Shown: positions 32,995 through 48,671 of the stretch, one piece after another
Layout: every line of letters starts with the position of its first letter
Position numbering within the stretch: the first letter of the stretch is position 1
Assembly: GCF_001267925.1 (NCBI RefSeq)
Contig: NZ_CP011409.1
Span: 3,844,001 to 3,908,000 of the forward strand
DNA length: 64,000 bases
Direction of reading: 5' to 3'
DNA from: Herbaspirillum hiltneri N3
Lineage (GTDB): Bacteria > Pseudomonadota > Gammaproteobacteria > Burkholderiales > Burkholderiaceae_D
Made by a program: the position numbers and the translations under genes
Notes under the pieces: generated by a model
What the model was told of the DNA's origin: nothing
Seen by the model: only the letters and a program-made list of their open reading frames with translations
Database searches by the model: none

Positions 32995-35900
32995 TCAGGC
33001 CAGGTGAATCCGCGCAACTTCCACATTGGACGCGTTGTAAAACGCATAGTCCGTGGTGCCGGGGAAGTAGACATAGTGGTCCGAGCCGTTGGCCGCGATC
33101 TGCAAGCTCTCGCTACCGCTCATCTTGACCGTCAGAATGTGCGATGAGGCGCCGCTGGGCATGCCCATGCTGATGACATCGGCGGCCGTAATCACGATAT
33201 TGGTGCCGACGCCGCTGGTCATATCCAGGGTGGTGATGCCGGTGACCTTGTTGGCGAAATTGGCCAGGGTGATGGAACTGCCAAGATCGGCGAAGTGCAA
33301 GGTCGTCGTGCCGGCGGCGCCGTTGATGGTGGAGATGTTTGACAGCCCCGTGGTCTGGTTGACCATGTCGCTCTGCGCACCGAGCGAGCTATGCGAACCG
33401 GCACTGACGTTGATCGTATTGAGGCCGGTGCCGACCGCCACGCTGTTGGTCCCGCCATCCACCACATTGAAGACATCGGTGCCGCTCGCCGCCCCGCCGC
33501 CGCTGAACGCATTGGTGGTAGCCGTCCCTTTGGCCGTCAGGATATTGGCGTTGGCGTCGCCGGTCAGCGTGCTGTCGAGGAAGGCGCTGCCGGTCAGGTT
33601 TTCGATATTGGTGTAGGTGTCGCCATTGGCGTCGCCGCCGGTGCCCGCATGCGTACCGAGATTGGCGATGATGGCGCCGTTGGCGTTGGAGTATTCATAG
33701 CTGACGGTATCGCTGGTGCCGCCGGCGCCGTCGAACTTGTTGGCGATGCTGTCGCCGTAGAACGTGTCGTTGTAGCTGCTTCCGACCACGTTCTGGATAT
33801 TGCTGTAGGTATCGCCGGTAGAGAACGACACACCGCCGCCGGCTGCGGCATCCACGCCCGCCGAACCCGTGTGATGGAACAGATCGACCACCACGGCATT
33901 GCCGGAACGCGCATAGTTGACCGTATCACCGTTGGCGCCATGGCCGCTGCCCTCGAAGGCGTTGGCCGCGGAGCTGGCGAAGAAGACGTCGTCGAAATTA
34001 CTGCCGATCAGGTTGCTGATGCCGGTGAACTTGTCGCCTTGGGCGAACCCACCGCTAGTGCCCGCGCCCGTCGTGTTCGACAGGTCTACGGTAACGAGAG
34101 CGGTTGACGCCAGATAGCTCACGGTGTCGACGCCGCCGGCGCCGCCGTCGAAGCTGTTGGCCTGACCGTTGGCGACGAAGGTATCGTTGAAGCTGCTGCC
34201 GATCAGGTTGTCGATGAAACTGAGCTTGTCGCCTGCAGCATCACCGCCGCTGGTGCCGGTGCCGTCCGTCGCGTTCAGGTCGACGGTCACCCCGCTCGCC
34301 GAACCAGCGTAGCTGGCGAAGGTATTGGCGCGATTGGCCGTCACCCCGGTCAGGGTATCGCCGCCACCTCCGCCCGTCAGGATGGTCTTGTTGGCGCCGG
34401 CGCCGGTCAGCGTGTCGGCGAAGCCGCTGCCGATGACGTTTTCGATGCTGGTATACACATCGCCCTGTGCATGAAAATTCGCGCCGATGCCGGTGTTCAA
34501 ATTAACCGTTACGCCGCCATCGGAACTGGTGTAGCTCACCGTATCGAATCCGCCCCCGCCGTTCAGGTTGTTGGCCTGGTTGTTGGCGACGAAGATATCG
34601 TCGTTGCTGCTGCCGATCAGGTTGTCGATGAAGCTGAGTTTATCGCCGGCGGCATCGCCGCCGCTGGTGCCGCTGCCGTCGGTGGCATTCAGATTGACGG
34701 TCACCGCTGCGGATCCGGCATAGCTGGCATAGGTATTGGCGCGATTGGACGCCACCCCGGTCAGCGTATCGCCACCGCCGCCGCCGGTAAGCACCGTCGC
34801 CCCGGTCGCAGCGCCCGTCAGGAAGTCGGCCGCACTGCCGCCGATCACGTTTTCAATGCTGGTGTAGGTATCGCCGTCCGCAAAACCGCCGACGCCGGCC
34901 CCGCCGGAACTCAGATCGACCGTGACGGAAACCGTCGAGGCCGAATAACTGACCGTGTCGGAACCAAGACCGCCATCAAAATTGTTGGCCACGCCGTTGG
35001 CGATGAACGTGTCGTTACCGGAACTGCCGGTGATGTCCTGAATGTTGACGAAGCGATCGCCGGCCGCGTAGCCGCCGGACGTCCCGCTGCCGTTGGTAGA
35101 GTTCAGATCCACCGTGACAGCCGCATTGGATGCTGCATAGCTGACGCGGTTATGCGAGCCGGTCACGCTGACGCCACCGTCGAAATAGTTAGCGTCGGCA
35201 CTCGCCACGAAGGTATCGTCGTACTGGCTGCCGGTCAGGTCCTGGATGTTGATCAGCGTGTCGCCCTGGGCAAAGCCGCCGCTGGTGCCGGTACCGTCGG
35301 TCTTGGTCAGGTCCACCGTCACCGCCGATGTAGACGCTGCGTAGCTCACGGCATTGTGCGATCCCGCGGCGCTGACGCCACCGTCGAAATTATTGGCGGC
35401 GCTGCTCGCGACGAAGGTGTCGTTGTATTGGCTGCCGGTCACATCCTGGATATTGACGAACTTGTCGCCTTGTGCGAAACCGCCGCTGGTCCCGGTGCCG
35501 TCGGTCTTGGTCAGGTCCACCGTCACCGCCGCCGTAGATGCTGCATAACTGACGCGGTTGTGCGATCCCGTCACGCTGGTACCGCCATCGAAGTTGTTGG
35601 CGCTGCTGCTGGCCACAAAAGTGTCGTCGTACTGGCTGCCGGTCACATCCTGGATATTGATGAACTTGTCGCCCTGGGCGAAACCGCCGCTGGTGCCTGT
35701 GCCGTCGGTCTTGGTCAGGTCTACCGTCACCGCAGACGTCGATGCTGCATAGCTGACAAGGTTGTGCGATCCCGCCACGCTGACGCCGCCATCGAAGTTG
35801 TTGGCGTCGCTGCTGGCCACGAAGGTATCGTCGTACTGGCTGCCGGTCAGGTCCTGGATATTGATCAGTTTGTCGTTCTGCGCGAAACCACCGCTGGTGC

Positions 35901-38900
35901 CGGTGCCGTCGGTCTTCGTCAGATCGACCGTTACCGCCGCCGTCGATGCTGCATAGCTGACGCGATTATGCGATCCAGCCACGCTGGCGCCGCCGTCCAG
36001 ATAATTGGCGTCGCTGCTGGCCACGAAGGTGTCGTCGTACTGGCTGCCGGTCAGATCCTGAATGCGGACGAACCTGTCGCCCTGGGCAAAGCCGCCGCTG
36101 GTGCCGGTACCGTCGGTCTTGGTCAGGTCCACCGTCACTGCCGCCGTCGATGCCGCATAGCTCACACGATTGTGCGAAGTGCTGCTGCTGACACCGCCGT
36201 CGAAATAGTTGCCGTCGCTGCTGGCGATGAAGGTGTCATCGCCCGAACTTCCGGTCAGATCCTGAATGTTAACCAGCTTGTCACCCTGTGCAAAACCGCC
36301 GCTGGTGCCTGTGCCATCCGTCTTGGTCAGATCCACCGTCACTGCCGTCGCCGATGCTGCATAGCTCACGCGGTTATGAACCGATCCGCTGCCTCCGTCA
36401 AAATTATTGGCGTCGCTGCTGGCCACGAAGGTGTCGTCGTACTGGCTGCCGGTCAGGTCCTGGATGTTGATGAACTTGTCGCCCTGGGCGAAGCCGCCGC
36501 TGGTGCCGGTGCCGTCGGTCTTGGTCAGATCGATGGTTACCGCTGCCGTCGATGCGGCATAGCTGACGCGATTGTGCGATCCGGTAACACTGGCGCCGCC
36601 ATCGATGTTGTTGGCGTCGCTGCTGGCCACGAAGGTGTCGTCGTACTGGCTACCGGTCACATCCTGGATGTTGATGAACTTGTCGCCCTGGGCGAAGCCG
36701 CCGCTGGTGCCGGTGCCGTCGGTCTTGGTCAGATCGATGGTTACCGCTGCCGTCGATGCGGCATAGCTGACGCGATTGTGCGATCCGGTGACGCTGGCGC
36801 CGCCATCGAAGTTGTTGGCGTCACTGCTCGCCACGAAGGTGTCGTCGTACTGGCTACCGGTCAGGTCCTGAATGTTGATCAACGTGTCGCCCTGGGCGAA
36901 ACCGCCGCTGGTGCCGGTGCCGTCGGTCTTGGTCAGGTCCACCGTCACTGCCGACGTCGATGCCGCATAGCTGACGCGGTTATGCGATCCCGTCGCGCTG
37001 ATGCCGCCGTCGAAGTTGTTGGCGTCACTGCTCGCCACGAAGGTGTCGTCATACTGGCTGCCGGTCAGATCCTGGATGTTGACAAATTTATCGCCTTGGG
37101 CGAAACCGCCGCTGGTACCGGTGCCGTCGGTCTTGGTCAGGTCCACCGTCACGCCGGCGTCGGAGTATTTATAACTGACGCGGTTGTGCGAACCCGCCGC
37201 ACTCACGCCGCCGTCAAAGTAATTGGCGACATTGCTGGCGATGAACAGATCGTCGTACTGGCTGCCGGTCAGATCCTGGATGTTGACCAGTGTATCTCCC
37301 TGCGCAAAACCACCGCTGGTGCCGCTGCCGTCTGTCTGAGTCAGATCGACCGTCACTCCCGCCGCCGATGCCGCATAGCTGACGCGATTGTGGGCACATC
37401 CGGTACCGCCGTCAAAATTGTTGGCGGCGTTGCTCGCCACGAAGGTGTCGTCGTATTGGCTGCCCGTCAGATCCTGGATGTTGACGAACTTGTCACCCTG
37501 CGCGAAACCACCGCTGGTTCCGGTACCGTCGGTTTTAGTCAGATCGATCGTCACCGCCGCCGTTGACGACGTATAACTCACGCGGTTGTGCACGGTTCCC
37601 GTACCGCCGTCGAAGCTATTGACATCGCTGCTGGCAACAAACAAGTCGTCAAACGAGGAACCGATGACATTCTCGAGGTTCGCGTAGGTATCGCCTGTCG
37701 CATAGCCGTTGGCGCCCAGCCCGGTGACCAGGTTGACCGTGACGCCGGCATTGGAATACACATAGCTCACCGTATCCGAACCCTGCAAGCCGTCGAACAC
37801 GTTGGCCACCGACGAGGCGATAAAGGTATCGTCATTGGTCGAGCCGATGACGTTCTGGATATTGGCGTAGGTGTCGCCTGCTGCGAAGCCGTTGCTGCCC
37901 GCATTGTTCACGAGGTCGACCACCACGCCGATGCTGTCGCTGGCCTTGGCATAGCTGACCGTGTTGGTGCCGCCCAGGCCGTCGAAGCGGTTGGCCGCAC
38001 CGTTGGCGATGAACATGTCATCGGCTGTGCTGCCGATGATGTTCTGGATGTTCAGATATGTGTCGCCATTCGCATAGCCGCCGTTACCGCCGCCCAGCAC
38101 CAGGTCAATCGTCACGCCCGCATTGGAGGCGGCATAGCTGACGGTATTGGAGCCGGCGCCGCCGTCGAAATTGTTCGCGACATTGCTGGCCACAAAGGTA
38201 TCGTTGCCGGAACTGCCGGTCAGGTCCTGGACGTTGATCAGCTGGTCGCCGGCGGCATAGCCGCCGAACGTGCCGGTGCCGTCGGTGTAGTTCAGATCCA
38301 CCGTCACGCCGGCATTGGAATTCTCGTAGCTGACGCGGTTGTGAACGGATTGAAGACCGCCATCGAGCCTGTTGGCATCCGCACTGGCGATGAATATGTC
38401 GTCGTAAATGCTGCCGATCAGATTCTGGATGTTGACGTACGAGTCGCCGTTGGCGTAGGTGCTGCCGGTGCCGGTGCCGATGGTGTTGGTCAGGTCGACC
38501 GTCACGCCGCCCACCGACTTTTCATAACTCACGGTATTGACGCCGCCACCGCCGTCGAAACGGTTGTTGTCGGCGCTGGCGATGAACAGATCGTTGAAAT
38601 TGCTGCCGATGACGTTCTGGATATGCAGCAGCGTGTCGCCCTGAGCATAGCCGCCGCTGGCGCTGCCGTCGAACAGACTGACGACGACGCCCGCATTCGA
38701 CGAGGCGTAGCTGACCGTGTCCGAACCGCCCGAGCCGCCGTCGAAATGGTTGGCGCCCGCGCCCGAAACGAAGATGTCGCCCGACGAGCTGCCGACGATG
38801 TTCTGGATGTTGGTATACGTGTTGTTCTGCGCGTAACCGCCGCTGCCGGTCATGGTGACCATGTTGGCGATGATGCCGCCGGTCGACGCACCGTAGTTGA

Positions 38901-41049
38901 CGGTATCGGAACCACCGCTGCCGCCATTGAAATTGACGCTGTCGATGCCGGCGATGAAGACGTCATCGAAGGCGCTGCCGATCACGTTCTGAATGTGGCT
39001 GTAGGTGTCGCCTTCGGCATCGCCGCCGACACCGCGTCCGCTGACGAAATTGACCGACACACCGGCTGCCGAGTTGGCGTAGCTGACCGTGTCCTGGCCG
39101 CCGCTGCCGCCGTCGAAATTGTTGACGTCGATATTGCCGACGAAGGTGTCGGCGAAGGCGCTGCCGATGACATTCTGGATATGGACATAGGTGTCGCCCT
39201 GCGCCGAACCGCCGGTGCCGACGCCGGTGCTCAGGTTGACCGTCACGCCGGCCGCCGAGCTGGCGTACGAAACCGTGTCGGAACCGCCGCTGCCGCCGTT
39301 GAAGCTATTGGCCTGAGTGTTGGCGATGAACATGTCGCCGGACGCGCTGCCGATCACATTCTGGATATGAACGTAGGTATCGCCTTCGGCGTCGCCGTTG
39401 CTGCCCAGACCGGTGATCAGGTTGACCGTCACGCCGGCCGTCGAATGCGCGTAGGACACCGTATCGGAGCCTCCCGTGCCGCCATCGAGACGATTGACCT
39501 TGCCGTTGGCAACGAAGGTGTCGCTGGAAGCACTGCCGATCAGGTTCTGGATGTTGCTCAGCACGTCGCCCTGGGCGTCGCCGCCGGTGCCCACGCCGGT
39601 GACGAGATCGATCGTCACGCCCGCAGCGGAATTCTTGTAACCGGCCGTATTGATGCCCTGCGTACCGCCAGTCAGCACGTCGGCGCCGGCGCCGCCTTCG
39701 AAATAGGTGTTGCCGCTGCCGCCGATAATGGTGTCCACGCCCACGCCGCCATAGAGCAGGTCGTTGGCGTTGCTGCCGTAGATCGTGACACCGCCGTCGC
39801 CGGCATGGATTTCATGCGGCACGCCCTGCGCCGGCAACACCCATACGCTCTTGCCGGTGGCCGGATCGAGATAGGTCAGGTCGGTGTAGGAACTGGCATC
39901 CTTGATCACCACGACGCGCGAATCTAGCAGGTGCGTAAGACCATCGCTGGTCAGCACCGACACGTCGAAATTGATGGTCGCCGTCGGCGCCGTCGGCCGG
40001 GTCGGATCGGCCGCCGTGGTGGTGTATTGCACTTGCAGGTCGAAGGTCTTTTCACCGGCAGCCGGCGTGATCTGATAGTTGCCGCCACCCAGATTGACCG
40101 CGTTCAAAATCGTCATGGTTGACGGCACGCCGCTGATCAGCACGGATTTCACGGTACCGTCGCCGGTGACGTTGACCTTGAATATCTTGATGAAATCGCT
40201 CTGCGTGTTGCTGCTGGTGGCGTAGATGGTATGGACATCGTTGCCGGCGTTGATCACCTGCGGCGCAAACTGCACCGAGTTGGAACCGTCGATGGCCGAG
40301 GCGACCGAGCCGCCGCTGCCGTGCAGCACGCTGCCGACCTGGGTCTGGGTTGTCAGGTTGAGCAGGTTGAGCGTCATCGCCGGCGTTTGCGGGCCCACCA
40401 CGATCGGTGTCAGCACCGAACCCGGACGCTCCGATATCTCCGGGGATACTTGTTTGATCAGCGAATCGGCGCCGGTCGTCACCGGCGGCGCAGGCGGCAC
40501 CGGGATCGACGGCAGCACCAGATTTTGCAGGCCGTTGCTGGTCAGCGAACCGGCGTTGTCCTGGATGATCTTGGCCAACTGGCTGGTGGCGGCTGGATTG
40601 ACCTGGGCCGAATTGTTGTTGGAGGTGAAGTGGTTTTCCGGCACACCGTGGCTATCGGAATTATTGGCACGGTCCTGAGTATTCACCGGATCGGAATTGA
40701 GTATCAGCGACTGGTCATTGTTGCGCAGCGGGATCTTGCCGACCAGGTCGAGCAAGCGGCCGGTGTCCTGCGAGGCATCGGCGAAAACAATCTTCGACTT
40801 CTCGTCCATGGCGCCCATCGCGCCGCCGGCCAGGACGACCTTGCTGCCGTCTTCAAGCTGCAGGACCATGTCGACGTCCACCACCTGCACGTGCTTGACC
40901 GCACCGCGCGGCACGTTGAGATGGAAGCTGCCGTTCTGATCGGGCATGGTCACGCGCGCGGAGCCGGTGACGGCCTGCGCGGCATTGGCTGCGTTTGCCG
41001 AATTGGCCGGATTTGCCGAACTTGCTTTCGATGAAGCTGCTGTCGCCAT
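32995..41049 (-). CDS. Giant type I-secreted repeat adhesin (RTX-like beta-roll repeats)
   Basis: About 2,684 residues from the ATG at 41047-41049 (GAGGT ribosome site); an in-frame TTG at 41073 is unlikely. The N-terminus is Ala/Asn-rich (about 1-30), followed by a globular segment (LNVPRGAVKHVQVVDVD, MVLQLEDGSKVVLAGGAM). From about residue 430 there are about 31 tandem repeats of 60-70 residues with calcium-binding-type glycine motifs such as GGSGGSDTVSYASS and GVTVDL, plus IQNVIGSA/DDTFVA. Twelve central repeats are nearly identical. The C-terminus (TVKMSGSESLQIAANGSDHY then VEVARIHLA) is a typical uncleaved type I secretion signal. No LapG-type cleavage site or retention plug is evident. 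Probably a surface adhesin for biofilm or host contact, exported by the genes just upstream. Confidence 0.88.
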   Translation of the reverse strand: MATAASSKASSANPANSANAANAAQAVTGSARVTMPDQNGSFHLNVPRGAVKHVQVVDVDMVLQLEDGSKVVLAGGAMGAMDEKSKIVFADASQDTGRLLDLVGKIPLRNNDQSLILNSDPVNTQDRANNSDSHGVPENHFTSNNNSAQVNPAATSQLAKIIQDNAGSLTSNGLQNLVLPSIPVPPAPPVTTGADSLIKQVSPEISERPGSVLTPIVVGPQTPAMTLNLLNLTTQTQVGSVLHGSGGSVASAIDGSNSVQFAPQVINAGNDVHTIYATSSNTQSDFIKIFKVNVTGDGTVKSVLISGVPSTMTILNAVNLGGGNYQITPAAGEKTFDLQVQYTTTAADPTRPTAPTATINFDVSVLTSDGLTHLLDSRVVVIKDASSYTDLTYLDPATGKSVWVLPAQGVPHEIHAGDGGVTIYGSNANDLLYGGVGVDTIIGGSGNTYFEGGAGADVLTGGTQGINTAGYKNSAAGVTIDLVTGVGTGGDAQGDVLSNIQNLIGSASSDTFVANGKVNRLDGGTGGSDTVSYAHSTAGVTVNLITGLGSNGDAEGDTYVHIQNVIGSASGDMFIANTQANSFNGGSGGSDTVSYASSAAGVTVNLSTGVGTGGSAQGDTYVHIQNVIGSAFADTFVGNIDVNNFDGGSGGQDTVSYANSAAGVSVNFVSGRGVGGDAEGDTYSHIQNVIGSAFDDVFIAGIDSVNFNGGSGGSDTVNYGASTGGIIANMVTMTGSGGYAQNNTYTNIQNIVGSSSGDIFVSGAGANHFDGGSGGSDTVSYASSNAGVVVSLFDGSASGGYAQGDTLLHIQNVIGSNFNDLFIASADNNRFDGGGGVNTVSYEKSVGGVTVDLTNTIGTGTGSTYANGDSYVNIQNLIGSIYDDIFIASADANRLDGGLQSVHNRVSYENSNAGVTVDLNYTDGTGTFGGYAAGDQLINVQDLTGSSGNDTFVASNVANNFDGGAGSNTVSYAASNAGVTIDLVLGGGNGGYANGDTYLNIQNIIGSTADDMFIANGAANRFDGLGGTNTVSYAKASDSIGVVVDLVNNAGSNGFAAGDTYANIQNVIGSTNDDTFIASSVANVFDGLQGSDTVSYVYSNAGVTVNLVTGLGANGYATGDTYANLENVIGSSFDDLFVASSDVNSFDGGTGTVHNRVSYTSSTAAVTIDLTKTDGTGTSGGFAQGDKFVNIQDLTGSQYDDTFVASNAANNFDGGTGCAHNRVSYAASAAGVTVDLTQTDGSGTSGGFAQGDTLVNIQDLTGSQYDDLFIASNVANYFDGGVSAAGSHNRVSYKYSDAGVTVDLTKTDGTGTSGGFAQGDKFVNIQDLTGSQYDDTFVASSDANNFDGGISATGSHNRVSYAASTSAVTVDLTKTDGTGTSGGFAQGDTLINIQDLTGSQYDDTFVASSDANNFDGGASVTGSHNRVSYAASTAAVTIDLTKTDGTGTSGGFAQGDKFINIQDVTGSQYDDTFVASSDANNIDGGASVTGSHNRVSYAASTAAVTIDLTKTDGTGTSGGFAQGDKFINIQDLTGSQYDDTFVASSDANNFDGGSGSVHNRVSYAASATAVTVDLTKTDGTGTSGGFAQGDKLVNIQDLTGSSGDDTFIASSDGNYFDGGVSSSTSHNRVSYAASTAAVTVDLTKTDGTGTSGGFAQGDRFVRIQDLTGSQYDDTFVASSDANYLDGGASVAGSHNRVSYAASTAAVTVDLTKTDGTGTSGGFAQNDKLINIQDLTGSQYDDTFVASSDANNFDGGVSVAGSHNLVSYAASTSAVTVDLTKTDGTGTSGGFAQGDKFINIQDVTGSQYDDTFVASSSANNFDGGTSVTGSHNRVSYAASTAAVTVDLTKTDGTGTSGGFAQGDKFVNIQDVTGSQYNDTFVASSAANNFDGGVSAAGSHNAVSYAASTSAVTVDLTKTDGTGTSGGFAQGDTLINIQDLTGSQYDDTFVASADANYFDGGVSVTGSHNRVSYAASNAAVTVDLNSTNGSGTSGGYAAGDRFVNIQDITGSSGNDTFIANGVANNFDGGLGSDTVSYSASTVSVTVDLSSGGAGVGGFADGDTYTSIENVIGGSAADFLTGAATGATVLTGGGGGDTLTGVASNRANTYASYAGSAAVTVNLNATDGSGTSGGDAAGDKLSFIDNLIGSSNDDIFVANNQANNLNGGGGFDTVSYTSSDGGVTVNLNTGIGANFHAQGDVYTSIENVIGSGFADTLTGAGANKTILTGGGGGDTLTGVTANRANTFASYAGSASGVTVDLNATDGTGTSGGDAAGDKLSFIDNLIGSSFNDTFVANGQANSFDGGAGGVDTVSYLASTALVTVDLSNTTGAGTSGGFAQGDKFTGISNLIGSNFDDVFFASSAANAFEGSGHGANGDTVNYARSGNAVVVDLFHHTGSAGVDAAAGGGVSFSTGDTYSNIQNVVGSSYNDTFYGDSIANKFDGAGGTSDTVSYEYSNANGAIIANLGTHAGTGGDANGDTYTNIENLTGSAFLDSTLTGDANANILTAKGTATTNAFSGGGAASGTDVFNVVDGGTNSVAVGTGLNTINVSAGSHSSLGAQSDMVNQTTGLSNISTINGAAGTTTLHFADLGSSITLANFANKVTGITTLDMTSGVGTNIVITAADVISMGMPSGASSHILTVKMSGSESLQIAANGSDHYVYFPGTTDYAFYNASNVEVARIHLA
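35100..37580 (-). repeat. Tandem 204-bp coding repeats in the adhesin gene
   Basis: About twelve consecutive, nearly identical units of roughly 204 bp (some 198), each encoding about 66-68 residues with core VDLTKTDGTGTSGGFAQGD, IQDLTGSQYDDTFVAS and a GSHNR spacer. The spacing is exactly 204 bases at 35,354, 35,558 and 35,762. The near-identity suggests recent duplication and recombination-driven copy-number change. Confidence 0.85.
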
Positions 41050-41130
41050 GTCAAACCTCGCTGAGGAAGTCAATCACATAATCATGGCAGCGCACGATGG
41101 CTTCGCCGCACTGCCCTTTTTCCGTTCGAT

Positions 41131-41310
41131 GCCGCTGTTGCTGCTGTTGCTGCTGTTGCTGCTGTTGCTGCTGTTGCTGCTGTTGCTGCTGTTGCTGCTG
41201 TTGCTGCTGTTGCTGCTGTTGCTGCTGTTGCTGCTGTTGCCGCTGTTGCTGCTGTTGCTGCTGTTGCCGCTGTTGCTGCTGTTGCCGCTGTTGCTGCTAT
41301 TGTTGCTGTT
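41131..41310 (-). repeat. 9-bp minisatellite, about 20 units
   Basis: Twenty tandem 9-base units read on the plus strand as GCTGCTGTT with variants GCCGCTGTT, GCTGCTATT and GTTGCTGTT; on the coding strand of the operon this is AACAGCAGC-type. It fills the gap between the exporter stop (41318) and the adhesin start (41049). It is open in all three frames on each strand and gives spurious poly-Leu, poly-Cys or Ser/Asn frames. Units toward the adhesin (41140-41238) are perfect copies. Confidence 0.92.
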
Positions 41311-41317
41311 ACCGTTA

Positions 41318-43036
41318 CTACTGCTGCAAGATCGCCGCGCTCGGTCCGTCGGCGACGATCTTGCCGTCGTTGAGCACGATGATGCGATCCATGCACCTGA
41401 GCAGAGCGGTGCTATGTGTCGCCACCACCAGAGTGCGTTGCGCCGAATACGCCATGAGTTTCTGGATGATCCTGGTTTCCGTCGACAGGTCGATGCCGGT
41501 AGTCGGTTCATCCAGCAGCATCACGGTCGGCATGCCCGCTACCGCACGCGCCAGCGCTACCATCTGGCGCTGACCGCCGGACAGGTTGCCGGGCGCCTTG
41601 AGCATCTGGTCCAGACGCAGCTCACCGCGCGCAATCAGGTCGTCCACGCCGGATACCGCTAGCGCCGCTTCATATTCGTCGCTGCCGATGCGGTCGCCCA
41701 CGAAGATGTTGGCCGCCAGGCTGCCGTCGAACAGGAACGGCTCCTGCGGCTTGTAGCCGATACAGCGCATGCGCACCGGCGCCGCGTAAGCCGCCACCGC
41801 CACGCCGTCGATCAGCACCTGGCCCTTGCCGGCGTCGATCTTGTGCAAACCGGCCAGCGCGCGCATCAGCGTGGTCTTGCCGGAACCGGAACGGCCGACG
41901 ATGCCGACCTTTTCACCTGGCTGGATCGTCAGCGAGACGTTGTCGAGCGCCGGCTTTTCATGCTTGTCGAGATGCAGCGTCAGGTTGACTACCTGGATCA
42001 GACCGCGCATGTCCTGGCGCAGCACGTCGGCGATCACCTGCTCCGGTCCGGTATCGTCGAACATCTCCTCGAACGCGGCGCGCGCGCGCCGGAACATTTC
42101 CATGCGTCCCAGCACCATCGTCACCGACGACAGCATCGACGTCGCGCGACTGATCAGCAGCGACGTGGCGATCAGCGCACCGACAGTGAGCGCGTTGTCT
42201 TCCACCAGGTACACGCCCACCACCAGCGTACCCACCGAGATCAATGTGTAGCCCACGGTCGACAAGGCGTAGCCGGCGTTCATCCAGAACCGGCTCTTGG
42301 CCTGGCTCACCGCGTTGTCGGCGGCATCCGAGAGGAAAGCCTTGACCAGCCGGTCCTGCAAGGGCGAGGTCTTCAATGTCTCCATGCCGAACACCAGGCT
42401 GGCGAGCTTGTCGATCTTGCCGATGCCGGACGTCATCGCGGCATTGCCGTAGTCGGTCGCGGGAATCTTGCACAGCAGCTGCGACGCCACCAGCAACGCG
42501 CCGCCCACCAGAATCACCCATACCAGATGGCCGCCGAGCACGCCTACCGCCACCAGATACATCGCCAGGAACGGCAAGTCGATCAGCATCAGCATGTAAT
42601 TCGATGAGAGCAGGTCGCGTGCGCTGCTGAGGTCGCGGTACTTGGCCAGCACCACCCCGACCGGCGCGGTGACCCGTGACTCCAGCAGGCGGCGCACCGA
42701 CTTGCCGTCGAACTCGATGTCGAAGCGTCCCGCCAGTTGCTCAATGTAGTACATGCGGATCACCCGCAGCACCAGCTCCAGCACGATGAACAAGACCATG
42801 CCCAGCGTCAGCGCCCACAGCGTTTCCGTGATGTGGTTGCCGATCACCTTGTCGTACACCAGCCGCGAATACAGCGGCATGAACAGGCCGAACACGTTGA
42901 TCAGCACGCCGGCCACGACGATCTCGACGAAGCGCCCGCCGTAGGCGCGCATCAGCGTCAGGTACACCGGGTCCTTGCGCAATGAGCGCAAATCGGCTTG
43001 CGGCTGGTCGACGTAGATCTGATCGCTCTCGTTCAT
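41318..43036 (-). CDS. Type I secretion ABC exporter (permease-ATPase)
   Basis: 572 residues from the ATG at 43034-43036 (a GTG at 43048 is in frame). An N-terminal ABC membrane domain with about five to six helices spans about 30-310. The ATPase domain has Walker A GIVGRSGSGKTTLMR near 380-394, signature LSGGQRQMVAL near 485, Walker B VMLLDEPTTGID and H-loop VATHSTA. There is no C39 peptidase or C39-like N-terminal extension, so it does not cleave its substrate. HlyB/PrtD-like with HlyD and TolC partners in the same operon; the substrate is almost certainly the adhesin just downstream. Confidence 0.92.
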   Translation of the reverse strand: MNESDQIYVDQPQADLRSLRKDPVYLTLMRAYGGRFVEIVVAGVLINVFGLFMPLYSRLVYDKVIGNHITETLWALTLGMVLFIVLELVLRVIRMYYIEQLAGRFDIEFDGKSVRRLLESRVTAPVGVVLAKYRDLSSARDLLSSNYMLMLIDLPFLAMYLVAVGVLGGHLVWVILVGGALLVASQLLCKIPATDYGNAAMTSGIGKIDKLASLVFGMETLKTSPLQDRLVKAFLSDAADNAVSQAKSRFWMNAGYALSTVGYTLISVGTLVVGVYLVEDNALTVGALIATSLLISRATSMLSSVTMVLGRMEMFRRARAAFEEMFDDTGPEQVIADVLRQDMRGLIQVVNLTLHLDKHEKPALDNVSLTIQPGEKVGIVGRSGSGKTTLMRALAGLHKIDAGKGQVLIDGVAVAAYAAPVRMRCIGYKPQEPFLFDGSLAANIFVGDRIGSDEYEAALAVSGVDDLIARGELRLDQMLKAPGNLSGGQRQMVALARAVAGMPTVMLLDEPTTGIDLSTETRIIQKLMAYSAQRTLVVATHSTALLRCMDRIIVLNDGKIVADGPSAAILQQ

Positions 43037-43077
43037 GGGTCCGTTCACACTTCACATGGCTGCCAAGGCCGCCGGCC

Positions 43078-44751
43078 TCAGCTGGCTTCCTTGTTGATCA
43101 TCGACAGTTCGCGAATCGCTTCGCGCATTTCGAGGCGCAAATCCTTGACCATGGTCTGACGGCCGCTGCGCATTTCGTCGATGACGGTCTGGGTATTGAT
43201 GTTCTGGCGCATCAGCGCTTCGGTGATCGAGGTCAGCGAAGTCGGAATGGCGCCGAGGTTCTTGACGCGGTCGTTCATCATCGCCATGTGCTTGGCCAGG
43301 TCGATCTGCAGCTGGCGCGACGACAAGGCGTCGCGCGTCATGTTGCTGGAATTCTCGCCGATGGCCTTGCCCAGTTCGCCCAGGCGCTCGGACACGGCCG
43401 AGTGGATTTCGCCCTGATGCTGGATCGCGCCGAGTTCGTCGGCAATGCGGATGGAAATCTGGTTGAGCAAGGTCGGCATCTGCGCGATATGCTGCGCCGT
43501 CTTTTCGGTCATGTTGGCCGCTTCCGACTGCTGCGCCTGCAAGGAGGTCAGCGCCGACGACAGCGACATCTGGCCGCTTTCCATCGTGGAAACGATCTTC
43601 GGCAACATGTCGAAACTGCGCAGGGCGATATCGCCGTTGACCGACAGGCGCTCTTCCAGCAACGACAGGCTTTGTGTCAGGTCGCGCGCGGAGGTCATCT
43701 TCTGATTGATGATCTGGCCGACGTTGCGGATTTCTTCCAGCGTCTGCTGGCCGACTTCATGCATGCGCGGACCGAAGGACACCAGCTGGCGCAGGTTCTT
43801 CGATTCATCCATGCTGGCGTGGAACAGCTCGACGATATTCTGCAGGCGGTCGTTCATGCCTTCGAGCTTGATGCCGGCCTGCATCGAGGCTTCCGAGCTG
43901 GCGCGCGCGGCCATGATGGATTCGCGCTGCAGCACCATCAGATCTTGCAGGAACTCGGCGAGGAATTGCTCCGACACGCCTTGGCGGCCGCTGGCGTTGG
44001 CTCCGGGACCGCTCATGTCGTGGATCACGTGCTGGACCATGTCGCTGATGCACTCGCGCGCACGCGACACCAGTTTCTTGTTGGCGGCGCGCAGCGGCGT
44101 CAGCGTCAAGCCCAGCGCCAGCGAACCGATCAGGCCGAACATCGAGGCCGAGAACGCAGTGCCCATGCTGGCCAGCGGCTTTTGCAGGTCGGAAACCAGA
44201 TGCATGAACGACGCATCCATGTCACCGCCCTGCGTCGCCTTGCCGAAGCCGTCGATCAGCGCCGCGGTGCCGACCAGCGTTTCGAGCAGGCCGATGAAGG
44301 TACCCAACAGGCCGAGCGCGATCATGAAGCCGGTCAGAAATTGCGGGAATTCGGTCTTCGCTTCCAAGTGGGCCTGCAGGTCCGACAGCGAGCGTTCGAT
44401 GGTTTCCTGTTCGATACGCGAGGTCAGGCGGCCTTTGGTGTTGGCGACGCTGACCAGCACCTTGGCAATTTCGCTGTCCTGAAACTCAGGCGCCTTGACC
44501 AGGTCTTCCATCGACTCGCCGCCGTTGACGCGCGCATAGAACAAGGCGAGCTTGTTGTATTCCCAGTTCACGCGCCACATGTTGTAGACGATCAGCGAAA
44601 CGCCGAACACCGCCACGCTGATGATGAACAGGTTGAGGAACGGATTGATCCGGATCGCGTGCAGGACGAAATCCCTGAACAGGAAACCGCCGAGCAGCAG
44701 GAACAGCGACGGTATCGCAGCGAGTGCATAGAATTTGCGCAGGTTTTTCAT
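43078..44751 (-). CDS. Long MotA/TolQ/ExbB-like proton-channel protein
   Basis: 557 residues. Four hydrophobic segments: about 9-27, 41-60, 137-165 (FMIALGLLGTFIGLLETLVG, the MotA/TolQ signature) and 195-222 (MGTAFSASMFGLIGSLALGL). A long helical coiled-coil tail covers about 230-557 (repeats such as SLLEERLS, ALTSLQAQQSE). MotA and ExbB family members use the proton or sodium gradient to power a partner; the partner here is the OmpA/MotB-like gene product. Located inside a type I secretion operon, as SiiB is in the Salmonella SPI-4 adhesin system. Much longer than MotA (about 290); the tail is reminiscent of ZorA. Confidence 0.85.
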   Translation of the reverse strand: MKNLRKFYALAAIPSLFLLLGGFLFRDFVLHAIRINPFLNLFIISVAVFGVSLIVYNMWRVNWEYNKLALFYARVNGGESMEDLVKAPEFQDSEIAKVLVSVANTKGRLTSRIEQETIERSLSDLQAHLEAKTEFPQFLTGFMIALGLLGTFIGLLETLVGTAALIDGFGKATQGGDMDASFMHLVSDLQKPLASMGTAFSASMFGLIGSLALGLTLTPLRAANKKLVSRARECISDMVQHVIHDMSGPGANASGRQGVSEQFLAEFLQDLMVLQRESIMAARASSEASMQAGIKLEGMNDRLQNIVELFHASMDESKNLRQLVSFGPRMHEVGQQTLEEIRNVGQIINQKMTSARDLTQSLSLLEERLSVNGDIALRSFDMLPKIVSTMESGQMSLSSALTSLQAQQSEAANMTEKTAQHIAQMPTLLNQISIRIADELGAIQHQGEIHSAVSERLGELGKAIGENSSNMTRDALSSRQLQIDLAKHMAMMNDRVKNLGAIPTSLTSITEALMRQNINTQTVIDEMRSGRQTMVKDLRLEMREAIRELSMINKEAS

Positions 44752-44821
44752 ACGTTCAGGTTCCGAAAGTAAGGACAGGATAGGAAAAATTCAGTGTTCA
44801 TCGCGGCTCCAGGACTAACGA

Positions 44822-46201
44822 CTAACGCGGCTCCCTGAGCGCCGTCTGGCCGAAGCGGCTCAGGGGCGACATCAGGTATTGCCAGACGGTGCGGCGACCG
44901 ACGATCATGTCGGCCGTGGCGGTCATGCCCGGCATCAGCGGGAGGCCGGTATCGAGCTTGGGATCGCGCGTGACCTCGATCTTGACGCGGTAGAAGCGCT
45001 CGCCGCGCTCTTCCGGCACGGTGTCGGCGCTGACCTCGGTAACCACACCCTTCATGGCGCCGTAGACGCCGTAGTCGTAGGCCGAAACCTTCACACGCGC
45101 CGGCGCACCGGTCATCAACTGGGCGCGATCGGTCGGCGCCACCTTCGCTTCGATCACCAGCTTGTCGTCGGTCGGCGTCATTTCGATGATTGCGTCGCCC
45201 GGCTTGACCACGCCGCCGACGGTATTGATCAGCACACGGTTGACGATGCCGTCCATCGGCGCCCGCACTTCCGAGCGCGATACGCGGTCGTTGCGCGACT
45301 TGATTTCTTCCTGCAGGCGCGCCAGTTCGTTTTCGCTGACGGTGAGGTCGCTGCGCGCATCGGCGCGGAAGCGCGAGGCGGCTTCGCCCATCTTGGCCTG
45401 GGCTTCGGCGATGGCGGCGGTCAGGCGCGGGATCATGGCGTTGGTGGCGGAAAGACGGCTCTGCGCATCCTGCGCCTTGGACTGGGCCTGGATGTCTTCC
45501 AGCTGCGAGGCGGCATTGCGCTCGAACATGCCGTGCACCAGTTTGTACTGGCGTTGCGCCAGATCGAATTCGGATACCAGGCTCTTCTGGCGGCTGACGG
45601 CTTCGCCCACTTCGGCCTGGCGCTGCGCCGATTGTTCGCGCAGCACGCTGAGTTCCTGCGTCAACTTGGACTGGCGCGCGGCAAACGAAGCCAGCTCGCT
45701 CTGCACCGCCGGATCGTCGCTGCGCAACTCGGGCGACATCGCCACCGCCGGCGCGCCGGCGGCTTCCGCCTTGAGACGCGCGATGCGGGCGCGCAGGCCG
45801 AGGATCTTGACGTTGCCTTCGCCGAGGTCCGCGTTGGCGCGCACGTCGGCAATCGAAATCAGCGTCTGCCCCTTCTTCACCGTGGCGCCTTCGCGCACCA
45901 GGATGGCGGAAACGATGCCGCCTTCCAGATGCTGGATGATCTGGTTGTGCTCGGAAGCGACGATGCGGCCGGCGCCGCGCACCACCATGTCAATCTGGGC
46001 AAACCACGACCACACCAGCAGGCACAGCAGCAGGAATACGGTAACGAGGATGAACTGGCGCGGGCGCGCGAGCTCCTGGTGATCGCCCAGCTCGCGATCC
46101 ACGCGAGGCGCGACGAGGCGCATCAAACGACGGCTGCGCGCCTGCAGCAGTAGCCGCAGGCGCAGGTCCCAACGCAAATTGTCGTTGGGCAGCTTCGTCA
46201 T
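44822..46201 (-). CDS. HlyD-family membrane fusion protein
   Basis: 459 residues from the ATG at 46199-46201, overlapping the OmpA-like stop (ATGA). One N-terminal membrane helix (QFILVTVFLLLCLLVWSWF, about 49-67), then the lipoyl-like half (IIQHLEGGIVSAILVREGA), a long coiled-coil hairpin (about 150-300) and the closing lipoyl/beta-barrel part (MDGIVNRVLINTVGGVVKPGD). Bridges the ABC exporter and TolC. A typical type I secretion adaptor of the PrtE/LapC type. Confidence 0.93.
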   Translation of the reverse strand: MTKLPNDNLRWDLRLRLLLQARSRRLMRLVAPRVDRELGDHQELARPRQFILVTVFLLLCLLVWSWFAQIDMVVRGAGRIVASEHNQIIQHLEGGIVSAILVREGATVKKGQTLISIADVRANADLGEGNVKILGLRARIARLKAEAAGAPAVAMSPELRSDDPAVQSELASFAARQSKLTQELSVLREQSAQRQAEVGEAVSRQKSLVSEFDLAQRQYKLVHGMFERNAASQLEDIQAQSKAQDAQSRLSATNAMIPRLTAAIAEAQAKMGEAASRFRADARSDLTVSENELARLQEEIKSRNDRVSRSEVRAPMDGIVNRVLINTVGGVVKPGDAIIEMTPTDDKLVIEAKVAPTDRAQLMTGAPARVKVSAYDYGVYGAMKGVVTEVSADTVPEERGERFYRVKIEVTRDPKLDTGLPLMPGMTATADMIVGRRTVWQYLMSPLSRFGQTALREPR

Positions 46202-46977
46202 TTTTGACCCGCCAGGTATTGGATGATCACGCGGGCATTGCTTTCGGCGCTGTTCTCGGACGTGGAGACGCGGCTGACCACGCGCTCCTTGTCGACGCCG
46301 GCGTCAATCAGGTGATTGCGCACCGCCACGGTGCGGTAATAGGCGCGGCGGCGGGCTTCGGTGAACTCGGCCGAGCCGATCACGCCGGTGATGACGATCT
46401 TGCCCTGCTGCGATTTCACGCGGCGCACCCAGTCGCCGATGCTGCCGTCGAGCGTCTTGGCCCCTTCGGCGTTTAGCTCGGTGGTTTCTTTTTCGAAATG
46501 CAACACCACCGCCTTGCTGTCGCCGTCGACCTTGTTGGTGCCGGGCGCGATTTCCTTGGCTTTCTCGACGCGCACCTGGATGTTGTTGTTGCCACCCGCT
46601 GCGGCGTCGCTGCGCAAGCTGCCGGCGTCGGCCTGCAGCGGCGGCGCGGCCTGGCGCGATTTGAGATCGGCGATCTCGCGCTTGAGCTTGTCGATTTCGT
46701 TGCTCTTGTCGCGGTTCTCGCTCTTGAGCCGTGCGGTATCGGCATCCGCGCCTTGCGGCGCGTCGATCGCGTCCGGCTTGACCTTGGTGGACCCGCTCTG
46801 GACCTGGACTTCGCCCTTGGTGACCATCTTGCTGACGCGAATCTCCGCCAGCTTCTGTGAATAGTAGAAGAGCGTCACGACGAACACCACGACCACGAAA
46901 ATCATGACCAGGACGACGTTGGACAACGCATCCACGAACCCCGGCCAGAAATTCTGTTCCTTGCCTCCCCCATCCAT
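46198..46977 (-). CDS. MotB/OmpA-like single-pass protein
   Basis: 259 residues. One N-terminal membrane segment preceded by NFWPGFVDALSNVVLVMIF (about 9-27); Asp17 sits where MotB and ExbD have the essential proton-carrying aspartate. A coiled coil follows (about 75-110), then a C-terminal OmpA-like domain (about 150-258, with FTEARRRAYYRTVAVRNHLI) that may bind peptidoglycan. Overlaps the hlyD-like start. It most likely forms a stator-like ion channel with the MotA-like protein encoded two genes downstream. Confidence 0.86.
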   Translation of the reverse strand: MDGGGKEQNFWPGFVDALSNVVLVMIFVVVVFVVTLFYYSQKLAEIRVSKMVTKGEVQVQSGSTKVKPDAIDAPQGADADTARLKSENRDKSNEIDKLKREIADLKSRQAAPPLQADAGSLRSDAAAGGNNNIQVRVEKAKEIAPGTNKVDGDSKAVVLHFEKETTELNAEGAKTLDGSIGDWVRRVKSQQGKIVITGVIGSAEFTEARRRAYYRTVAVRNHLIDAGVDKERVVSRVSTSENSAESNARVIIQYLAGQK

Positions 46978-46994
46978 CGTGTCCCCAGCCTTTC

Positions 46995-48671
46995 CTATTT
47001 GCCGTTGCGCGACTGGTCATTCAACCGGTCGGACGATTTGTTGTCGGGAGGCGTCCACGCCCGCCCGGTATTGCGCAATATCTGGTAGCTGATATCGGCC
47101 TGTTGAAACAGCAGCAATGCAAAATCCATGCGCGTCTGGTAAGCCTGCTGATAGGCGTCGAGCACGTCGAGCAGTTGCTTGCTGCCGGTCGACAACTGTT
47201 CGAGGAAGACGTCGGCGACGTTGGCATTGTTCTCATAGATGTCGCGCGAGATATTCATGCGCTTCTTGACTGCCTCAAGCGTGCGGTAATTGATCTCGAC
47301 CTGCTCCTTGAGCTTGCGCTCGAGGTCGGCCGCGGTATTGCTTTTTTCCACCAGCTTGGCGCCGATCTGGCTCTGGTAGTACGCATCCGAACCGCCATTG
47401 AGCAGGTTCATGGTCAGCACCAGCATCAGGCGGCGATCCGTCACCAGCGTCTGGTCGCCGCCGGCGCCCCGGGTCTTGGCCTGCGTCCACTCCACCGCGA
47501 AGGACGGCGAGAATTTGGAACGCGCCGACTTCAGTTCTTCCCGCACCGCCTCGGTGTCGCTGCGCGCGGCGCGGATGCCGGGGTTGTTGTCGTAGACGTC
47601 CTGCAACGCCAGGCGCGATGTCGGCGGCACTTTCGGCATCATGCGTTCAGGCACCTGCACCTGCTGCACGCGCCGGCCGATCAGCTGGGTCAGCGTCACC
47701 ATGGCGCTTTCCAGGGTGCCTTCACTTTCGAGAATGGCGGAATCGGCCTGCAGCGAGCGGCCGCGCACGCGGTCATAGTCAATCTTGCTGGCGCCGCCGC
47801 CTTCGACGCGCTTGCCCATGTAGTCGAGCAAGTCTTTCATGCGTTGTGCATAGCTGCGCGCAAACGACAGCGAGGCATAGGCGCGCAGCACGTCGTAATA
47901 GGCTTTGATGGCGGCGTAGTACAGCGACTCGCGCGCATCGTCGCGGCGCTGGTCGGCGGCGCGCGACATGGCGCGCTGCTTCTGGAAGTCGAAATAGGAA
48001 CCCGGCGCGAAAATCGGCTGGCGACCGATCAGCGTGGCATCCCAGCGCTTGTGCTGGTCGGCCTGGACGATATTGCCGTTGTCATCCCGGAACGAGGCCG
48101 GGGAAGAATACTCACGCCCCTTTTGCGTGCGCACGTCCAGCGTAGGCCCGAGTTGTCCCAGCGCGGCCTTGGCGGCGTAGCCGGCCTGGTCGGCCAGGGC
48201 CGAAGTGGCGGCGTAGCTGTAGCTGTTATTGAGCGCCAGTTCGATGACCTGATCCAGGGTCAGGAAAGGCACCTGTTCGTCGCCGACGGTTTCCGAATTG
48301 ACGTAAGGCAGGTCGATGGCGTTGCCGGTGAAACCGGAGTCGGACTGGCGTAGCAGGGCCAGGATTTCATCGTTGGATGCGGCGGCGGCATCGGCCCTGG
48401 CGGCGGCATCGCTTGCTCCATTAACACTGGCCTGCCGTGACGCGGCATTTTCATCGCGCTCTGGATTTACTCGCATTTGCGGCGGCACATCCAAGGCGGG
48501 CGCATCGGTTTTTGCCTGCGCGAGCAAAGCCCTTCCGGAATTTAAATTTCCGGAGAGAAATTTTCCACTGGAAAGCGCGGGCAATGTAATGGCGTCCGAT
48601 GCTGCAACTACGTCCGAGACGATCGATAAGAACAGCGCACCAAAGACTAACGTCTTGTTTCTATATGTCAT
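46995..48671 (-). CDS. TolC-family outer membrane efflux protein
   Basis: 558 residues from the ATG at 48669-48671; the frame extends further upstream but the signal-peptide-like start (MTYRNKTLVFGALFLSIVS) supports this choice. The Ser/Ala-rich N-terminus is longer than usual (about 130 residues) before the outer-membrane-factor domain, which shows LDQVIELALNNSYSYAATSA near 170 and helical repeats to the end (LLDVLDAYQQAYQTRMDFAL). Forms the outer-membrane tunnel of the type I system. First gene of the operon, with a long leader and a TATAAT -10 at 48825-48830. Confidence 0.88.
   Translation of the reverse strand: MTYRNKTLVFGALFLSIVSDVVAASDAITLPALSSGKFLSGNLNSGRALLAQAKTDAPALDVPPQMRVNPERDENAASRQASVNGASDAAARADAAAASNDEILALLRQSDSGFTGNAIDLPYVNSETVGDEQVPFLTLDQVIELALNNSYSYAATSALADQAGYAAKAALGQLGPTLDVRTQKGREYSSPASFRDDNGNIVQADQHKRWDATLIGRQPIFAPGSYFDFQKQRAMSRAADQRRDDARESLYYAAIKAYYDVLRAYASLSFARSYAQRMKDLLDYMGKRVEGGGASKIDYDRVRGRSLQADSAILESEGTLESAMVTLTQLIGRRVQQVQVPERMMPKVPPTSRLALQDVYDNNPGIRAARSDTEAVREELKSARSKFSPSFAVEWTQAKTRGAGGDQTLVTDRRLMLVLTMNLLNGGSDAYYQSQIGAKLVEKSNTAADLERKLKEQVEINYRTLEAVKKRMNISRDIYENNANVADVFLEQLSTGSKQLLDVLDAYQQAYQTRMDFALLLFQQADISYQILRNTGRAWTPPDNKSSDRLNDQSRNGK

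Follow-up and report, generated by a model that had tools for sequence, protein, structure and literature searches.

Recurrent association of a putative MotA/MotB-like stator pair with a type I adhesin secretion system in Herbaspirillum hiltneri N3 and other proteobacteria

A 64,000-nucleotide stretch of Herbaspirillum hiltneri N3 (contig NZ_CP011409.1, positions 3,844,001 to 3,908,000; hereafter the window, with coordinates counted from its first letter) carries six co-directional minus-strand genes, running from 48671 down to 32995, which encode a TolC-family channel, a MotB/OmpA-like protein, an HlyD-type adaptor, a MotA/ExbB-like protein, an ATP-binding cassette (ABC) exporter and a giant repeat adhesin (Table 1). 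The best reading of the two motor-like proteins is as an ion-driven stator pair dedicated to this type I adhesin system; according to the models, the pair would belong by fold to the 5:2 motor superfamily and by its accompanying components to type I secretion. A pair of this type (SiiAB) is already known in Salmonella. What is new is the recurrence of the arrangement across proteobacterial classes and its link to a common N-terminal adhesin domain, here termed the prefix, both of which go beyond an earlier sequence-only reading of this DNA.

The motor-like pair and its secretion operon

Our gene calls agree with the sequence-only reading, which had described these genes as co-directional, closely spaced and ending at the adhesin. 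With starts set at 48671 and 41049, the successive intergenic gaps are 17, -4, 70, 29 and 268 nt, the negative value reflecting a translational overlap of 4 nt between motB and hlyD. That reading had also proposed an ion-driven stator coupled to the adhesin system; both predicted folds, an invariant Asp together with three invariant Arg residues, and the conserved gene order described below argue for this proposal.

Both motor-like proteins match their Pfam families below the cut-off (21.2 bits against 22.9 for the MotA-like protein with PF01618, a narrow shortfall, and 20.8 against 27.2 for the MotB-like protein with the OmpA family); the assignment of the pair therefore rests on alignments and fold searches. 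The single-chain model of the MotA-like protein matches the TolQ, ExbB, ZorA and MotA folds, and its hydropathy profile has four groups of hydrophobic segments, the last ending near residue 217. The tail that follows, predicted by the sequence-only reading to exceed 300 residues, comprises approximately 340 and is modelled as helical with low confidence (pLDDT near 50). T151 and S203 are invariant in the 22 rows of alignment A5 (21 of 28, plus P0004). Within the tail, the motif L-x3-G-P-R-M (residues 323-330) is invariant in alignment A1 (30 rows chosen from 120 matches listed), and the pattern G-[PA]-R-M occurs in 46 of the 74 MotA-like open reading frames (ORFs) of the secretion loci defined below; this is a possible contact site. 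PF28082.1 is a precomputed match for the MotA-like relatives P0031, P0034 and P0037, and is not in the Pfam scan of P0004.

For the MotB-like protein, the ion-site aspartate is D16 rather than the Asp17 named in the sequence-only reading. Counting the window row, it is invariant in 21/21 rows of alignment A2 (chosen from 120 matches listed) and in 27/27 rows of alignment A4 (26 of 30 candidate loci plus the window; L003, L026, L033 and L036 are omitted), in which R210, R215 and R220 are also invariant. The shorter pattern W-x-G-x-V-D is present in 66 of the 69 MotB ORFs of secretion loci and is missing from three. The single-chain model of this protein (ma4d41bfa1da4) matches the SiiA, Pal, OmpA and MotB domains, with SiiA the joint best match, and the predicted domain thus has a SiiA-like peptidoglycan-binding fold. 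Residues 8-111 also match the PRK09039 model (3.3e-14; 53.5 of 305 bits). One locus (L088 9035-11163, genome G439) contains an adjacent pair of MotB-like genes, one encoding WPGYVD and the other WQGYVA, lacking the Asp; the pair adjoins motA, hlyD, ABC and a weak tolC match, with a 9,542-residue prefix-bearing frame nearby; the two products possibly form a heterodimer with a single ion site.

The type I component set is complete, with OEP, ABC_tran and TIGR01843 over their cut-offs and TIGR01844 and TIGR03375 under theirs. The best NCBIfam match of the ABC exporter is the LssB model TIGR03375 (448.7 bits, cut-off 693.1), to which it aligns over positions 125-691, so that an N-terminal part of the model of approximately 125 residues is missing. 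That this system exports the adhesin is suggested by gene adjacency.

Recurrence of the gene set and linkage to the adhesin prefix

An A1 scan of one genome per species, covering 84,980 species, yielded 355 stretches with relatives, the best 80 of which were kept as loci and searched with individual proteins of the window as well as profiles derived from those same loci. Secretion genes were recognised in 74 of the 80 (secretion loci), whilst six (L063, L068, L072, L074, L076 and L080) are motor-only motA-motB units without recognised secretion genes. The order tolC-motB-hlyD-motA is consecutive among the recognised genes of 59 of the 74 secretion loci; six more have motB-hlyD-motA without tolC immediately before, and nine are truncated or otherwise arranged. 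After motA, 22 of the 74 continue with ABC and then adhesin, as in the window; 42 pass straight to the adhesin among the recognised genes, and 17 of these have ABC after it. The sequence-only reading would have been contradicted had the order not been conserved with the adhesin in other genomes; it is conserved, in alpha-, beta-, gamma- and deltaproteobacteria. Carriers include Herbaspirillum, Herminiimonas, Methylobacillus, Roseateles, Magnetospirillum, Pseudomonas, Geobacteraceae and Desulfuromonas, although several are metagenome bins whose names are perhaps wrong.

A channel-domain tree (71 rows, omitting 15 near-duplicates and one short row) places the motor-only rows, together with L089, in one separate branch (100/100); the deep joins among the secretion types are insecure, and the program issued a long-branch warning. 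The source genome (one contig, 4.97 Mb) has its own gene as the sole MotA-like match at E <=1, and the nearest named relative, in Herbaspirillum lusitanum P6-12, is 97% identical over the best segment. Neither the MotA-like protein nor the prefix had a match in 72,556 plasmid records. Source annotations call the MotA-like relatives 'biopolymer transporter ExbB', 'methyl-accepting chemotaxis protein' or 'hypothetical protein', names which hide the link to secretion.

The prefix, of approximately 69 residues, is common to the adhesins of motor-bearing loci. A prefix-bearing adhesin is present in 65 of the 74 secretion loci compared with none of the six motor-only loci. Seven of the nine secretion loci without it are cut near the possible prefix site: L004 and L060 stop as soon as the last gene ends, L002 and L061 no more than 360 bases beyond it, and the sequence after motA extends for approximately 3 kb in L052 and L065 and for 4.6 kb in L058. 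The other two are L066 and L067; in these and in L058 a repeat ORF is truncated at the upstream edge.

Because these loci had been chosen by MotA, whole genomes were also searched for the prefix. In the class sample it was found in one of 276 genomes, the source genome itself. In the order sample it was found in 5/300 (G000, G299, G345, G437 and G439), and in each the prefix locus includes a MotB-like gene. Of these 300 genomes, 17 matched the MotB profile, all five among them; the other 12 matches scored no more than 43.3 bits, the sole one opened (G284) being a motor-only pair and the remaining 11 starting at model position 79, without the membrane helix. If those 12 are placed outside the family, the overlap between prefix and MotB is 5/5 with none discordant (Fisher 5e-11); the number of independent events is fewer than five, since G299 and G345 share a genus. 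The phylum sample gave the prefix in 4/398 genomes (G000, G299, G844 and G664), with G844 encoding a 5,557-residue prefix-bearing frame surrounded by motB, motA, ABC, hlyD and tolC in a different order. Across the order and phylum samples, six distinct genomes have a prefix match above 40 bits, and all have a MotB-like gene at the locus, although in one of them no motA was found.

Of 34 genomes in the source genus, 27 match the prefix, 25 with more than 90 bits; the other two, G437 and G598, have a weak match only, in a 133-residue frame. A second locus in G582 (L103, L104) reads tolC-motB-hlyD-motA-adhesin-ABC. A third, in G582 and G583 (L106, L107, L110 and L111), comprises hlyD, motA, a large ORF and a giant prefix adhesin, with motB and a standalone prefix protein at its far end and an ABC gene seen in G582 only. 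Such standalone prefix proteins, of 130-132 residues, lie directly beside motB in G437, G582 and G583 (L083 9326-10594, L106 15349-16602 and L110 14031-15299); the one in L083 is also near tolC and a 1,149-residue ORF with EAL and Ig-like matches.

By sequence the prefix is weakly similar to the prefix-like domain of BapA, which shares its N-terminal position in an adhesin, but the window prefix is under both family cut-offs (18.2 of 27 bits for BapA_N PF22783; 17.8 of 35 bits for NF033677). Among the 32 prefix sequences of alignment A3 (31 of the 65 loci plus the window), the best E values are 6.8e-4 (PF22783) and 1.1e-5 (NF033677), with 7/32 and 8/32, respectively, matching at E <=0.01. NF033677 gave three matches across the 276 class genomes, all below the cut-off and in short stretches (L090-L092). 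The prefix domain offers a sequence marker for finding motor-bearing adhesin systems.

Known systems and the possible role of the motor

The closest parallel is siiABCDEF of Salmonella pathogenicity island 4 (SPI-4), which likewise encodes a MotB-like and a MotA-like protein with TolC, HlyD, ABC and one giant adhesin, and whose siiE-siiF order, with ABC directly after the adhesin, is matched in 17 of the 74 secretion loci. As the sequence-only reading had noted, the gene order otherwise differs: siiA and siiB precede siiC and siiD (PMC12607715), whereas motB and motA of the window flank hlyD. SiiE is built of BIg domains (PMC6272769), in contrast to the repeats of approximately 68 residues and few RTX-like motifs of the window adhesin. 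A profile search with A2 at E <=10 returned 21 matches, with SiiA (6qvp) not among them; no match named SiiB was among the best 120 of 884 relatives listed for the MotA-like protein; and PDB sequence searches gave no motor protein among the 22 matches to the MotA-like protein or the best 60 of 137 to its profile. The kinship of the window pair to SiiAB rests on predicted fold and setting.

SiiAB is thought to form a proton channel (PMC6272769, PMC12607715), collapse of the proton-motive force lessens surface retention of SiiE (PMC6272769), and without SiiAB invasion drops whilst SiiE still reaches the medium (PMC12607715). SiiF binds SiiB in two-hybrid tests (PMC6272769, PMC12607715), and peptidoglycan binding by SiiA requires R162 and R167 (PMC12607715). 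SiiA and SiiB were described in 2017 as 'two unique accessory proteins' of the SPI-4 system (PMC5466336), and in an evolutionary study of 2025 SiiAB represents type I secretion among such motors (PMC12204202). In the literature searched, which excludes most subscription journals and both primary SiiAB papers, we found no report of a motor-pair adhesin system outside Salmonella. The available part of a survey of type I adhesin neighbourhoods (PMC12153261) names only ABC, membrane fusion protein (MFP) and TolC-like genes; that of a review (PMC8277102) treats SiiCDF without the SiiAB pair; and that of a Janthinobacterium study (PMC8929069) gives type I genes and MotA/TolQ/ExbB proteins, unlinked. 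In a Herbaspirillum paper (PMC8222739), type I secretion and adhesin appear in the reference list only. Term searches of the texts found no MotA or OmpA in PMC5646257 (Desulfovibrio), no MotA, OmpA, ExbB, TolQ or proton in PMC13090378 (Desulfovibrio Dvh), and no MotA, OmpA, ExbB or proton in PMC12758282 (enterohaemorrhagic Escherichia coli OI-28). The Dvh system resembles that of the window in having a giant adhesin with type I genes, six genes (DVU1013-1018) being assigned to the exporter (PMC13090378); it differs in the presence of LapG- and LapD-like proteins, and its extra exporter genes may include a motor pair.

ZorAB of the Zorya system shares with the window pair a 5:2-family channel fold, a long helical cytoplasmic tail and a peptidoglycan-binding partner with an ion-site Asp (PMC11890865), but the window pair is linked to secretion genes rather than Zorya effectors. 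In the comparison with ZorA suggested by the sequence-only reading, the score is 27.8 bits against an NCBIfam cut-off of 500, and Zorya membership is rejected on the profile scores. The motor-only MotA-MotB pairs, for which PRK09039-like is our own label, are the nearest non-secretion relatives found; no tolC, hlyD or prefix was recognised in their six loci.

In the LapD/LapG-controlled system, LapA, a giant adhesin retained by its N-terminus, is exported by the type I route (LapBCE); the window operon differs in carrying a motor pair. Control by LapG is rejected, the family being found in 0/34 genomes of the genus (LapD was not searched); among 14 control genomes the LapG search was positive in Caulobacter only.

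In the mechanism we propose, TolC, HlyD and the ABC exporter, assigned by family, would export the adhesin. A MotA-like ring and the Asp16 helix of the MotB-like protein would form a MotA5MotB2-type stator, its stoichiometry and ion flow being presumed, that conducts ions across the inner membrane, and the OmpA-like domain would grip peptidoglycan next to the exporter. The adhesin would exit C-terminus first, so that its prefix would remain last at the exporter as the target of the stator, and ion flow would decide between surface retention of the adhesin and its release, as an alternative to LapG proteolysis. Such control is proposed because of the prefix-motor linkage and the published SiiAB phenotype. 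We give about an even chance to the motor being an ion-driven stator of the type I system which sets surface retention or release via the prefix, judging from sequence, models and analogy.

Several observations weigh against this proposal. All structures are single-chain models, with low confidence in the tail of the MotA-like protein. L066 and L067 have 9.4 kb after motA and no prefix. The prefix-like adhesin of G664 matches weakly (28.6 bits) and is encoded beside tolC; no motA was found anywhere in that genome, nor any motB in 12 kb of the 13.8-kb contig, which counts against strict linkage. In G437, where motB accompanies a standalone prefix, motA was likewise not found. In the source genus, orphan prefix adhesins (L105, L108 and L112-L114) lie in retrieved stretches where no motor gene was recognised; their genomes carry a motor-bearing system elsewhere, whose exporter they may use. 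Finally, the standalone prefix protein lacks any hydrophobic segment; this would fit cytoplasmic rather than periplasmic action and hints that the prefix could work from the cytoplasmic side.

Other roles for the motor can be envisaged. Ion flow might power or prime translocation, helping to start or pull the substrate through TolC beside ATP hydrolysis. The position of hlyD between motB and motA in 65 of the 74 secretion loci (59 plus six) suggests a tight assembly with the export channel and so favours this role, but other giant adhesins leave the cell via three-component systems. Together with the continued secretion of SiiE in the absence of SiiAB (PMC12607715), this makes translocation unlikely as the role of the motor, despite the precedent of GldLM, which in type IX systems drives the secretion of SprB as well as its movement (PMC8986121). 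We regard as similarly unlikely that the pair is a passive peptidoglycan anchor or scaffold for the exporter, with no need of ion flow: an OmpA-like domain with invariant arginines would suit an anchor, and peptidoglycan binding matters in SiiA (PMC12607715) and ZorB, but an anchor need not preserve the membrane-helix Asp, or T151 and S203, over wide distances.

A further thought is that the motor sets the exposed adhesin in motion or puts it under tension, by analogy with GldLM and SprB in gliding. A 5:2-type motor with one giant adhesin is in principle the same pairing, and the long cytoplasmic tail and peptidoglycan-binding fold would be in keeping with it; the operon, however, has no spare gene for a tread or track, and we consider this distinctly improbable. 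A related and rather improbable version is a motor-plus-substrate-tag module, in which the stator engages the adhesin prefix and transmits force, holding, reeling or moving the surface fibre; if true, it would be a proteobacterial counterpart of GldLM-SprB, evolved on the type I pathway. That the motor-like genes serve phage defence or envelope upkeep and lie in the operon by chance, as weak matches to the ZorA and ZorB models might suggest, is very improbable given that their order with the secretion genes is kept across several proteobacterial classes and that the prefix is linked to them; moreover, none of the six operon genes is left to encode a Zorya effector (PADLOC was not applied to the neighbouring genes). 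The recurrence of the pair outside Salmonella, together with the linked adhesin domain, would provide harmless model strains for studying how an ion-driven motor might control a secreted adhesin, which is still unclear for Salmonella itself (PMC12607715).

Further features of the locus

The coordinates of the operon features are collected in Table 1. The tolC ORF reaches 48779, and the signal-peptide-like start at 48671 coincides with the end point chosen in the sequence-only reading. An HSP90 gene lies upstream in divergent orientation and an aminotransferase gene with a GntR domain downstream in convergent orientation, both ordinary. A promoter scan gave two sites, both on the opposite strand, against 1.8 expected.

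Table 1. Features of the type I adhesin operon, in window coordinates
Feature	Position	Strand	Basis or remark
TolC-family outer membrane channel	46995..48671	-	OEP PF02321 4.9e-37; TIGR01844 1.3e-35, under its cut-off
MotB/OmpA-like protein, 259 aa: single membrane helix bearing Asp16, then a coiled linker and an OmpA-like periplasmic domain	46198..46977	-	Alignments and fold
Codon of invariant Asp16, motif N-x-W-P-G-[FY]-V-D	46930..46932	-	Alignments A2 and A4
HlyD-type periplasmic adaptor	44822..46201	-	TIGR01843 2.5e-107, over cut-off
MotA/ExbB-like channel protein, 557 aa	43078..44751	-	PF01618 2.6e-4; fold match
Type I ABC exporter, 576 aa	41318..43048	-	ABC_tran over cut-off; TIGR03375 (LssB model) 3.3e-134
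Giant repeat adhesin, no Cys	32995..41049 (ATG) or from 41073 (TTG)	-	2,692 aa with TTG start
Adhesin N-terminal prefix domain	40705..40956	-	Common to adhesins of motor-bearing loci

The adhesin repeats correspond in the DNA to a 204-nt unit present in 12.3 copies at 35103-37591. A pattern search gives six RTX-like motifs in the window adhesin, for which the Pfam scan lists no RTX family; the adhesins of L030, L033 and L047, scanned with Pfam, have 16, 13 and 27 RTX stretches, respectively. The gap between the ABC and adhesin genes contains a tandem 9-bp repeat, TGCTGCTGT, in at least 7.9 copies (window 41130-41200, the scan ending at 41200), and variation in its length could tune adhesin expression.

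Elsewhere in the same genome, a 2,982-bp stretch (L082 10325-13304; G000:C1:2842000-2861999) is 99.9% identical to window 38801-41782, which covers the ABC gene at its 3' end together with the 5' portion of the adhesin gene. Several ABC genes of the source assembly also come as pairs of equal score, and the stretch may for this reason reflect either duplication in the assembly or recent partial copying.

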